From Thermoplasmata archaeon (GTDB lineage Archaea; Thermoplasmatota; Thermoplasmata; Methanomassiliicoccales; Methanomethylophilaceae), in assembly GCA_015063245.1 (NCBI GenBank), contig SUSV01000002.1:124001-188000 (forward strand): a DNA stretch of 64,000 nucleotides. Reading direction: 5' to 3'. Position 1 is the first letter of the stretch. Each line of letters opens with the position of its first letter. Of the stretch, positions 51,904 to 56,162 are shown piece after piece. A program made the position numbers and the translations under genes. The notes under the pieces are model-generated. The model searched no databases. It saw nothing but the letters and a program-made list of their open reading frames with translations, and was not told the origin of the DNA.

Positions 51904-52946
51904 AGAGAGTGACCTTCGCAAGGATCCCCTCCGAGGAGGCGGGACCTGCGATAAGGGACCTGATGTCCAGGGATTTCGTGGACCTGCATGCCAAGATCGG
52001 CAAGGATGATGTTTTCCGTTACGTTCCTATCCTGCCGGAGCATGTGGACGATGTCCGCGCTATGGGGCTCGAGACCATGGAGGGCGACGCCCATACACTG
52101 GACCGCCGCAGCCCTCAGGAGAAGATACACGATATCCTGTCATCATACCCGGAGCTCGACGGCATTGTGCCCGAGAAATGGGAGTATGTGGGCGACATCG
52201 TGATCGTCAGGATGGATCCCGGGTGCCAGCCGTACAAGGAACTGATAGGCAGGACATATGCGGAGGTGCTGGGAGCAAAGACCGTCTGCGCGGACGTCAG
52301 AGGCGTCTCAGGCGAGTTCAGGCAGCCGAGTATGGAGATCATCTACGGGACGGAGACGGAGTCGGTACGTCTGGAGAACGGCATCAGGTACGGGTTCGAT
52401 GTGACCAAGGTCATGTTCGCGTCGGGCAACACCGATGAGAGGATGCGCATGAGGCAGCTGGACTGCACGGGCGAGACCGTGGTCGACATGTTCGCAGGTA
52501 TAGGCTACTTCACTCTCCCTATTGCGAAATATTCAGGTGCCAGACGTGTCTTCGCCTGCGAGAAGAATCCTGAATCCTACGAGTTCCTGTGCCGCAACGT
52601 CATCGATAACGAGCTGTCGGATGTGGTGATCCCTATACTGTCCGATAACAGGAACCTTCTGGGGAAGCACTTCGCCGACCGCATACTCATGGGCTACGTC
52701 CAGACGACATCGGAATTCGTCCCGAAGGCCCTGTCGATGATACGCCCCGGCGGGATAATCCACTATCATGATACGTTCTACGTCCATGAGTACATGGACA
52801 GAATCAGATCGGTCTTCGACGCGAACTGCGGAGAGGACGGTTATGAGATCCTCAGGGTGCACGAGGTGAAGTCATACGCGCCTTCGGTGTCCCACTATGT
52901 CGCCGATATCCGTATCAGACCTTCTCCCCTGAACCCGATGCAGTGA
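51900..52946 (+). CDS. taw2: Trm5/Tyw2-family enzyme, probably Taw2 (wyosine pathway)
   Basis: 348 aa. An N-terminal D1-D2 region (residues 1-165) and a Rossmann domain with VVDMFAGIGYFTLPIAKYSG and ACEKNPESYEFLCRN. Where Trm5 methyltransferases have NLP, this protein reads MGYVQTTSEF, then GGIIHYHDTF, which matches the Tyw2/Taw2 aminocarboxypropyl transferases that modify G37 of tRNA-Phe. Trm5 activity cannot be excluded. The 3' end overlaps the convergent 501-aa gene by 32 bp. Confidence 0.82.
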   Translation: MKRVTFARIPSEEAGPAIRDLMSRDFVDLHAKIGKDDVFRYVPILPEHVDDVRAMGLETMEGDAHTLDRRSPQEKIHDILSSYPELDGIVPEKWEYVGDIVIVRMDPGCQPYKELIGRTYAEVLGAKTVCADVRGVSGEFRQPSMEIIYGTETESVRLENGIRYGFDVTKVMFASGNTDERMRMRQLDCTGETVVDMFAGIGYFTLPIAKYSGARRVFACEKNPESYEFLCRNVIDNELSDVVIPILSDNRNLLGKHFADRILMGYVQTTSEFVPKALSMIRPGGIIHYHDTFYVHEYMDRIRSVFDANCGEDGYEILRVHEVKSYAPSVSHYVADIRIRPSPLNPMQ

Positions 52947-54420
52947 GCAGCGTGTTCATGGTCTCGCGGTACCTGTCGCCGTTGGCAGACACAACCGCTT
53001 TTGCAAAAGGTGCCAGATAGTCTGCGAGATCCTTCTCCTCCTTGCTGAGCTTGATGGGTATCTCGGTGCATCCGAGCCCGATGAAGAAAGACGATGCGAG
53101 GCTGCGCGATCTGTTGTTCTTGAGGCTCGTGTTCTGAACGGTCTTGGTCAGCATCTCAATTCCGCCCACTTTGGCCGCTTTGGCGAGGGTATCAGCTATG
53201 ACGGTGATGGGGCCGGGCTTGCTGAACACAGGCAGCGAATCAACCACGGATGCCGATATGAAAATCGTGTGGGCTGCTTCAAGCGCCTGAAGGGGCTGTG
53301 CTTTGGACTGGTCCCCGACCTTGTTCGATGTGATCTCGTCGGTGTATGCGGCGATGATGCCTTTCCAGTCATCCTCCCAGATTGCCGAGAGGATATCAGT
53401 GTCCTTGCCGTTCTTGATGATGATCGTCCTGGGGTTGGCCGAGAGGAAGTCCTTCAGGAGGGCCTTGATCTTCTCATCACCGCTGACGTCCGCTATGAAC
53501 GCATCCAGAGAAGAACCGTAGTTCTTGGTCCCGATGATGTATGTCGCGGTCGCATTTCCCCTGAGGTCGCCGAGCTTGGAGCGCTTGACCTCCCCTATGA
53601 GAGTGGAGTCGGTGACCTTTCCGATCATGTATTCCTTCAGCTTGGTGTCGGTGATCTCCACGGTATCGCTCTCGCCCTCTGCGTGGTACTTGTGCCTCAC
53701 ACGGACAGAGAAATCGCCGAGGGGGTCGTTGCAGCATATCCTGGACACCAGGAACTGGAGCGTCGATACGGGTTTGGCGCACTGCTCGCATATCCTGACG
53801 GTCTCACCGAGCGATTTGACCTCGATCTCCAGCACGGCGGAGGCGTCATGTCCGCATTCGACGGCATCCTCGGGGAACTCGTACGGGGTCTCCCAGAATG
53901 CATCGTAGAGGTAGTCCTCAGGCATGTTGAACTTGTCCGAGCAGACCAGCGTGTCCTCGAAGGAGTACAGGTAGAGCCCGTTCTTCTTGATGAACTGGTT
54001 GTAGAGGAGCAGCCTGATCCTGGGGTCGGTGTAGTACTGGCAGCCGATCAGCTTGTCGGCGCCGACGCTTCCCCTGACCGCATAGGAGACCACCTCTCCG
54101 CCCAGATTGGCGCTCGCAAGGAGAGGCACGGATCCAGCCGCAGCCAATGAGATGGTGCCGGCGTAGGCCTTGGTGATGTCGTCGTTGAACATCTTCCCTG
54201 CTTCCTTCACCAATGCATCGGGGTTGTTGCGGATCTTCTGCAGGGAGTCGATGCTCTTGAACACCTTGTCGAAGGCGCATTTCCTGCAGTTTCCGGCGCA
54301 TTGTGGTCTCAGAAGGCCCGGGTTGTCGGCGAGATTCCTGGAGCGCTCCAGAAGATCGTCTTCCAATTTCTTGGAGGTGTGTTTCACTCCTCTCATTCTC
54401 ACGCGCTTCTTGCCGGGCAT
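52915..54420 (-). CDS. Uncharacterised 501-aa protein with cysteine clusters
   Basis: I do not recognise a family. The N terminus is basic (MPGKKRVRMRGVKHTSKK) and followed by CAGNCRKCAF; further cysteines occur in CGHD, CEQCAK and RICCNDP, suggesting up to two zinc or Fe-S sites. A hydrophobic Ala/Gly stretch (ITKAYAGTISLAAAGSVPLLAS) may be buried rather than a membrane segment. Predicted soluble. A strong TATA lies 25-35 bp upstream and the gene is monocistronic. Its 3' end overlaps the Taw2-like gene. It looks like a conserved lineage-specific protein, possibly nucleic-acid binding. Confidence 0.55.
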   Translation of the reverse strand: MPGKKRVRMRGVKHTSKKLEDDLLERSRNLADNPGLLRPQCAGNCRKCAFDKVFKSIDSLQKIRNNPDALVKEAGKMFNDDITKAYAGTISLAAAGSVPLLASANLGGEVVSYAVRGSVGADKLIGCQYYTDPRIRLLLYNQFIKKNGLYLYSFEDTLVCSDKFNMPEDYLYDAFWETPYEFPEDAVECGHDASAVLEIEVKSLGETVRICEQCAKPVSTLQFLVSRICCNDPLGDFSVRVRHKYHAEGESDTVEITDTKLKEYMIGKVTDSTLIGEVKRSKLGDLRGNATATYIIGTKNYGSSLDAFIADVSGDEKIKALLKDFLSANPRTIIIKNGKDTDILSAIWEDDWKGIIAAYTDEITSNKVGDQSKAQPLQALEAAHTIFISASVVDSLPVFSKPGPITVIADTLAKAAKVGGIEMLTKTVQNTSLKNNRSRSLASSFFIGLGCTEIPIKLSKEEKDLADYLAPFAKAVVSANGDRYRETMNTLLTASGSGEKV

Positions 54421-54482: not shown

Positions 54483-55028
54483 TCATTCGTCCGACAGAAC
54501 CGCATAGAGCTTGAGGTCGGAATAGGTCCCGTCCCTGTTCCTCTGGGCATCGCGCATGATCCCCTCGAACTGCATCCCTATCTTCTTCAGGATGTTCTCG
54601 GAGGCGCTGTTCTCCGGGTGGCATGTGCCTTGGATGCGGTGGATACCTATCTGCTTGAATGCGAAATCCCTTACGGCCAGTGCTGCTTCGGTCCCGTATC
54701 CCTTGCCCCACCATCTGCTTCCCAGGCTGTATCCAATCTCGCAAGAGCGGGCATCGAAATCGATCTCGAACAGGCCGATGGCTCCGATGACCATGCCGTC
54801 CACGGTTATCGCCCATCCGTAGAAATCCGAGTTGTTCTAGTAGCACTGGATGTGCGTCTCGATGAACTTCTCGCATCCTTCCTTGGTGGTGCAGGGCGCG
54901 AAGCTCACATACCTGTATACAAGGGGATCGGAGCCGTAGTTCCTGTAGAGGTCCTCCAGGTCGGACTGCATGAAACGGCGGAGTGCAAGCCTCTCAGTAT
55001 CTATCCGGACGGTACCGATGCTCCTCAT
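54483..55028 (-). CDS. GNAT (RimJ/RimL-type) acetyltransferase with in-frame TAG
   Basis: 182 codons from ATG 55028 to TGA, continuous except for one TAG at codon 64 (54839-54837). Before it: TERLALRRFMQSDLEDLYRN and VYRYVSF. After it, in the same frame: FYGWAITVDGMVIGAIGLFE, then the acetyl-CoA loop RWWGKGYGTEAALAV and NSASENILKKIGMQFEG. Together they make a complete RimJ/RimL-like N-acetyltransferase of normal length. Because no other gene in the window ends in TAG, and related methanogens decode TAG as pyrrolysine, read-through is plausible. Otherwise it is a nonsense-mutated pseudogene. No second lesion is visible. Confidence 0.75.
54837..54839 (-). other. In-frame amber (TAG) codon, candidate pyrrolysine site
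   Basis: Flanked by Gln-Cys-Tyr and Asn-Asn-Ser-Asp, in a surface-exposed linker before the YGWAI strand of the GNAT fold. Methylamine methyltransferase genes show the same feature in Pyl-using archaea. Confidence 0.6.
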
Positions 55029-55162
55029 GCCCAGATGTATCTTTTACAGGTATTTACTCAGTTCTGAGGCCATGGTAACAGTTAATAACCGTGACAGGAG
55101 ATTGTATTATAGGTGATCCGCACGGATGACAATACGAAAAGAAGATAGGGGTATGGATCACA

Positions 55163-55348
55163 GTGTCCTTATTCACAATCTATCTGGTCAGCATAATCGT
55201 GGCGATAGCCTTCACCGAGCTGTCCCTCTTCGTAGTGGCCGTCTATGCCGTCGCCATGCTTCTGTTCCTCTCTGTGCTTGCATTCGAGGGCTGGCAGAGG
55301 ATCAAGGAGATAGATGGAGGTCTTGAGGATGCTGTTGACAACTACTGA
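55163..55348 (+). CDS. Small two-helix membrane protein
   Basis: 61 aa from the GTG at 55163: FTIYLVSIIVAIAFTELSLF and VVAVYAVAMLLFLSVLAFEG are the hydrophobic helices, then a short charged tail. No in-frame ATG exists, while an ATG at 55126 behind a TATA-like TATTATAG is in another frame and yields an unconvincing Arg/His-rich peptide. The start is therefore weakly supported. Its end overlaps the YbjQ-like gene by 20 bp. Confidence 0.5.
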   Translation: MSLFTIYLVSIIVAIAFTELSLFVVAVYAVAMLLFLSVLAFEGWQRIKEIDGGLEDAVDNY

Positions 55349-55640
55349 GAACATACCCAGAAAGAGCTACGAGATCATAGGCATCGCCAAGGGGAACATG
55401 ATCCAGACGAAGAACATCGGCCGTGACATATCCCAGGCAGCGAAGTCGATCGTGGGAGGGGAGCTCAAGAACTACGTCAAGATGATGAACGAATCACGTG
55501 CGATCGCTACCCAGAGGATGGTCGAGGATGCGGAGGCCCAGGGTGCGGATGCGGTCGTCTGCATGAGGTATGTGACATCCATGATATCAGCGGGCGCCGC
55601 GGAGATCACCGTATATGGTACCGCCGTCAGATATATCTGA
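55329..55640 (+). CDS. YbjQ/UPF0145 family protein
   Basis: 103 aa. The ATG at 55329 is preferred because GGAGGT (55317-55322) lies 6 nt upstream; 55314 is also ATG. TTENIPRKSYEIIGIAKGNMIQ, AIATQRMVEDAEAQGADAVVCMRY and the C-terminal EITVYGTAVRY match the YbjQ family, which forms pentamers and has been linked to metal or envelope stress. Function unknown. Confidence 0.82.
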   Translation: MLLTTTENIPRKSYEIIGIAKGNMIQTKNIGRDISQAAKSIVGGELKNYVKMMNESRAIATQRMVEDAEAQGADAVVCMRYVTSMISAGAAEITVYGTAVRYI

Positions 55641-55673: not shown

Positions 55674-56162
55674 GTGGAGTCGGATTTCGAGAAGAGCGTC
55701 AGGGAGTTCCTTGCCAGGCCGCCATTCGGTCTCAGAGGCCTCAAGGCTGAACAGCTGGCACTGTTCTGCGAAGCCCTTACCCACGACAGCTTCACGAACG
55801 AGGCGGCGGATATGGATCCGCCCAGGAACGTCCCCTCATATGAACGGCTGGAGTTCCTCGGCGATGCCGTTCTTGAGTTCCTGGTCTGCGAGCACGTCTA
55901 CAAGGAGACTGATATCGTGGAGGGTCCGATGACCGATTACAAGCAGGATAAGGTGGCGAACCATATGCTCTCCCAAAGGATAGTGGAGAGGGGCGTGGAC
56001 ATCGATTCGGTCATGAGGGTCGGGAACGGGCACAGGAAAGGGAACATGAAGGTCATCGAGGAGAACATGCGTGCGGACTGCTTCGAGGCCCTGGTCGCAG
56101 CAACATACCTCTGTTTCGGTCTGGATGAGGCCCGCAGATTAGTCCATTCGGTAGTCTTGTAA
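55674..56162 (+). CDS. Ribonuclease III domain protein without dsRBD
   Basis: 162 aa from the GTG at 55674 (an earlier GTG lies at 55647); ends in TAA. The RNase III signature ERLEFLGDAVLEFLV (residues about 60-75) and the second acidic pair in RADCFEALVAATYL are present, so the catalytic Mg site looks intact. ALTHDSFTNE is the first helix of the fold. No double-stranded RNA-binding domain follows. RNase III is uncommon in archaea; it may process structured RNA or be of bacterial origin. AGGGGT just upstream is the likely ribosome site. Confidence 0.85.
   Translation: MESDFEKSVREFLARPPFGLRGLKAEQLALFCEALTHDSFTNEAADMDPPRNVPSYERLEFLGDAVLEFLVCEHVYKETDIVEGPMTDYKQDKVANHMLSQRIVERGVDIDSVMRVGNGHRKGNMKVIEENMRADCFEALVAATYLCFGLDEARRLVHSVVL

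Follow-up and report, generated by a model that had tools for sequence, protein, structure and literature searches.

Probable pyrrolysine beyond the methyltransferases

In the methyltransferases MtmB, MtbB and MttB, pyrrolysine is catalytic and conserved across lineages. Methanomassiliicoccales have a PylS that lacks the N-terminal domain and pyl genes in the order T-S-B-C-D, and in 2025 an archaeal genetic code was reportedly described that reads every TAG as pyrrolysine. Pyrrolysine has also been predicted in other kinds of protein. In Ca. Methanomethylophilus alvus, 16 non-methyltransferase proteins are predicted to contain it (Table 7 of Borrel et al., PMC4153887), among them AGI85596.1, annotated as 'putative acetyltransferase'. 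TAG ends only 1.6% of the genes of this species, and constitutive pyrrolysine decoding has been proposed for it (PMC4153887). In strain ISO4-H5, 46 genes have in-frame amber codons (PMC5011839). In an earlier prediction study, a few high-ranking candidates showed UAG in one or few genomes, without conservation among species (PMC3639795). Thg1 (tRNA-His guanylyltransferase) of some Methanosarcinales contains pyrrolysine according to Heinemann et al. (2009), as cited in PMC4153887 and PMC8211752; the case is attributed to neutral evolution.

Here we consider a GNAT acetyltransferase gene of the same order as M. alvus, found in a stretch of 64,000 nucleotides (the window) from the genome, designated G000, of a methane-producing archaeon. 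An earlier note on this DNA had proposed that the gene, interrupted by one TAG, encodes a pyrrolysine-containing protein, and that reading gains support from the pyl genes of the genome, from a TAG shared with the sister species G013 and from purifying selection downstream of the TAG. To judge from the sequence comparisons, the gene very likely specifies one full-length RimJ/RimL-type GNAT, codon 64 of which, UAG, would be decoded as pyrrolysine by tRNA-Pyl(CUA) and PylS. We infer that the cell makes the protein, with pyrrolysine as residue 64.

The acetyltransferase frame

The gene (54483..55028, minus strand) has 181 codons including the TAG and ends in TGA. Translated, it runs from an ATG through 63 sense codons to the TAG at 54837-54839, then through 117 sense codons to the TGA at 54483-54485, in agreement with the earlier description of a frame with one TAG and no other lesion; the TAG is codon 64, as described, while the length given then, 182, is corrected to 181 residues plus the stop. 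Read through the TAG, the protein scores 123.3 bits against PF13302 (Acetyltransf_3; cut-off 25.4) and covers the profile completely (1-138 of 138). It falls far below the equivalog cut-offs for RimJ (43 bits against 190) and RimL (34 against 184), and is therefore called RimJ/RimL-like. An AlphaFold model, built with lysine replacing pyrrolysine, has a mean pLDDT of 92, and its best fold matches in the PDB are 2z0z and 3fbu. The 117 codons 3' of the TAG (54486..54836, minus strand) encode the core of the GNAT fold, including the acetyl-CoA loop WWGKGYGTEA. In a codon-model gene call, no other frame of the window looks coding both before and after a TAG.

TAG as a stop codon and the pyrrolysine genes

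In-frame TAG codons were sampled in the window and in other stretches of this genome. Of the 57 genes called in the window, 54 end in TGA and 3 in TAA; TAG ends none of them, which bears out the earlier observation on some 60 gene ends, and this in a window with 686 TAG against 497 TAA trinucleotides. In the other stretches, the sole apparent TAG end is the internal pyrrolysine codon of mtmB.

The genome (1.49 Mb, 94% complete) encodes what the reading of UAG as pyrrolysine calls for, namely tRNA-Pyl(CUA), PylS and PylBCD, genes for which the earlier note had advised a search. The tRNA-Pyl has the anticodon CTA. The C-terminal domain of PylS (TIGR02367) is found above cut-off with 264 bits; the N-terminal family TIGR03912 has no match in the genome, which is not read as absence of pylS. 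PylB, PylC and PylD exceed their equivalog cut-offs and lie in a single cluster (L035 8105-12051). Directly upstream of the cluster is mtmB, with its internal TAG at L035:7083-7085; read through this TAG, it scores 702 bits against PF05369. The PylS without N-terminal domain and the T-S-B-C-D order of G000 match those of Methanomassiliicoccales (PMC5011839).

Conservation of the TAG and the history of the locus

A family-wide search put orthologues of the GNAT (E < 1e-30) in no more than six genomes, all of the genus, G000 included, and a wider scan of contigs returned distant bacterial relatives only. Aligned at codon 64, G000 and G013 have TAG, G009 has CAA, G042 has ATG and both G003 and G012 have GAC. 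The UAG is thus kept at the same codon in one related species and absent in the other four. The GNAT proteins of G000 and G013 are 62% identical, and the gene of G013, with its TAG at exactly the same codon, is a positional orthologue, an outcome on the side of the earlier proposal that orthologues be compared for a conserved TAG. Further disabling mutations in close relatives, which would have spoken for decay, are lacking in the downstream part of both G000 and G013.

Directly downstream of the GNAT gene lies a gene for a 501-aa protein (52915..54420, minus strand), which served as a marker of the locus in relatives, and the other border is an RNase III-like gene, named by eye (55674..56162, plus strand). 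Among 31 genomes of the genus, G013 alone shares this position of the gene; in the 29 genomes with the marker, the GNAT gene stands beside it in G000 and G013 only. In G013, the 501-aa protein is 82% identical to the G000 copy, the GNAT gene adjoins it and the RNase III-like gene is near. Most of the remaining relatives in the genus have the RNase III-like gene next to the 501-aa gene, and no GNAT gene lies between the border genes where both were seen. Elsewhere in the genus, the GNAT gene sits at another place or is absent: G042 has a copy and the near-identical G019 does not. In the window, the interval between the borders (54483-55640) holds the GNAT gene and two small frames (55163 and 55314), neither of which has a match in the G013 stretch.

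A tree from two flanking proteins makes G000 and G013 sisters (support 100/99). In the tree of the GNAT gene itself they stay apart, which leaves a small probability of an independent gain of the TAG or replacement of one of the copies; a joint clade is nevertheless unrejected at 0.05 by the AU test (p 0.058 for protein, 0.21 for DNA). Most likely, to go by position and flanking tree, the common ancestor of G000 and G013 already had the GNAT gene with its TAG. Independent insertion of a GNAT gene at the same place in both is unlikely, even with a gene tree weakly against sisterhood.

Selection downstream of the TAG

The 117 codons after the TAG are under purifying selection in G000 and G013. 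Differences between the two at codon positions 1, 2 and 3 are 0.25, 0.21 and 0.54, respectively, and 74 of the 117 residues are identical, with no stops and no indels. In neutral simulations at equal third-position divergence, about 22 residues of 117 (31 at most) remained identical and about four stops arose. The dN/dS ratio is ~0.08 (0.083) after the TAG against ~0.35 before it, values that are rough because dS is saturated. Homology and coding constraint are found on both sides of the in-frame UAG.

Codons +4 to +11 (DFYGWAIT) specify identical residues in the two species and differ by two silent changes, while the first possible in-frame start is a GTG at +12 in G000 and at +15 in G013. 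Conservation of this block ahead of any in-frame start speaks against reinitiation.

Readings of the TAG

The TAG could be a nonsense mutation, the GNAT gene being a pseudogene or recently inactivated. One TAG as the sole lesion would fit a very recent mutation if G000 were taken alone, and the gene belongs to the accessory set and is frequently lost, as the pair G042 and G019 illustrates. The sister species shares the TAG even though its protein is only 62% identical, and in neither genome has the sequence after the TAG acquired a stop or lost its constraint. This makes inactivation very improbable, and a recent mutation private to G000 was rejected on this comparison. Downstream constraint by itself would also be seen if translation stopped at the TAG by design, yielding a 63-residue peptide, with the C-terminal part made separately by reinitiation, and a GTG-started frame of 106 aa does lie downstream. 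Against such a split stand the DFYGWAIT block, which precedes the first in-frame start and shows silent changes only; the fold, part of which would be missing from a GNAT without strand 1 and helices 1-2; and the orthologues without TAG, which are single chains. We hold the split to be highly improbable.

A full-length product might also arise if another tRNA or leaky termination let translation pass the TAG, with a standard residue at codon 64. Near-cognate read-through of amber codons is generally known, and relatives carry Q (CAA) or other standard residues at this position. A dedicated tRNA-Pyl(CTA) with its PylS is expected to outcompete near-cognate tRNAs, and to this reading, too, we give hardly any weight.

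Decoding of the UAG as pyrrolysine would proceed by tRNA-Pyl(CUA), charged by PylS, pairing at codon 64, and such decoding is probably routine where UAG has all but ceased to end genes. With UAG hardly serving as a terminator in this genome, decoding would need no special signal. The TAG would have been present in the ancestor of G000 and G013 and kept since UAG functions there as a sense codon.

The site of the TAG and its surroundings

In the AlphaFold model, codon 64 falls at the C-terminal end of a helix (residues 49-65). The position is variable, being Q, M or D in the other relatives, and lies beside a gap in more distant ones, as expected for a residue that is tolerated. Pyrrolysine is thus probably tolerated rather than needed at codon 64, and probably has no catalytic role in the GNAT; we infer that the site is neutral. 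That pyrrolysine is kept there by selection for a role in the enzyme we consider very unlikely. Were it so, how much full-length enzyme there is, or how active it is, could, for example, be coupled to the supply of pyrrolysine and hence to methylamine metabolism.

No Rfam PYLIS match, the mark of a PYLIS-dependent gene, follows the TAG of the GNAT gene, and no stable RNA fold was found after it (fold z -0.84 in G000 and +1.21 in G013). In mtmB, which served as control, a PYLIS_1-like element starts exactly at the TAG (29.8 bits, E 6e-4, below the gathering score). PYLIS is held to be non-essential (PMC3639795).

Other TAG-interrupted genes

PF13302 and PF00583 searches of the 31 genomes of the genus found GNAT frames with an internal TAG in five distinct genes (two in G013 and one each in G000, G014 and G023), and no internal TAA or TGA in GNAT frames among the matches listed. 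A different GNAT with an in-frame TAG is present in the complete, single-contig genome G014 (G014:C1:681558-682082; L017/L081), where the TAG replaces a Trp of the sister species (IIGS-TAG-VRQY against IIGSWVRQY); by this alignment, it is likely a second pyrrolysine acetyltransferase. In G023, a GNAT domain is joined to a part that was named, by eye, pyridoxal kinase-like (L082, G023:C89, ~969-2319), and the one in-frame TAG of the frame is within the GNAT part (LTV-TAG-RDNHRAVNLY). A further GNAT frame of G013 (PF00583; G013:C25:7060-7323) also contains a TAG.

Frames of other kinds with TAG as the sole interruption were also seen. In G009, a Na/phosphate cotransporter-like frame (L077:8080-9171 onwards) runs ~160 codons past its TAG and has 524 aa when read through, and in G012 a glycosyltransferase-like membrane protein (L080:8937-9362 onwards, minus strand) has 396 aa when likewise read through; both were named by eye.

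An order-wide search turned up one more GNAT interrupted in this way, in another family (EKSRE-TAG-IRHTL; L075:1289-1961, G039:C34). No PylS above cut-off was found in G039, and its TAG is probably a true nonsense mutation, or else the pyl genes are missing from the assembly. TAG nonsense mutations thus probably do occur in the order, and a single TAG alone is no proof of pyrrolysine.

Comparison with known systems

The RimJ/RimL-type GNATs of PDB entries 3fbu, 2z0z and 1s7k share fold, length and the PF13302 domain with the GNAT of the window; to our knowledge, they are ordinary proteins whose genes have no in-frame TAG. MtmB, MtbB and MttB are alike in having an in-frame TAG to be decoded by the same pyl genes, and unlike in the conservation and catalytic use of the residue, codon 64 of the GNAT gene being variable. 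The mtmB of the same genome differs also in its PYLIS_1-like element. Thg1, as described in the sources cited above, resembles the GNAT as a non-methyltransferase enzyme with pyrrolysine and in the neutral evolution invoked for it, and belongs to a different protein family and order.

The closest likeness is to the M. alvus set, which shares with our case an in-frame TAG in non-methyltransferase genes, the order and the rarity of TAG terminators. Its acetyltransferase has 162 aa against 181 aa here. The earlier note had placed a pyrrolysine GNAT outside the well-known set, which needs tempering, as a putative acetyltransferase was already among the predictions for M. alvus (PMC4153887). The picture already drawn for Methanomassiliicoccales is unchanged. 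The gene is a reminder that gene callers truncate TAG-containing genes, and the shared TAG, the selection after it and the Q, M or D found at the site elsewhere make it a good target for proteomics. It also offers a clean comparative case for sense reading of UAG in an archaeon that decodes pyrrolysine, and in an enzyme that is ordinary and accessory. The M. alvus predictions were based on BLASTP matches on both sides of the TAG; to these the GNAT of the window adds a TAG conserved between two species and a measurement of selection after it, making it a new, well-supported example, at the level of sequence, of a phenomenon already predicted for the order.
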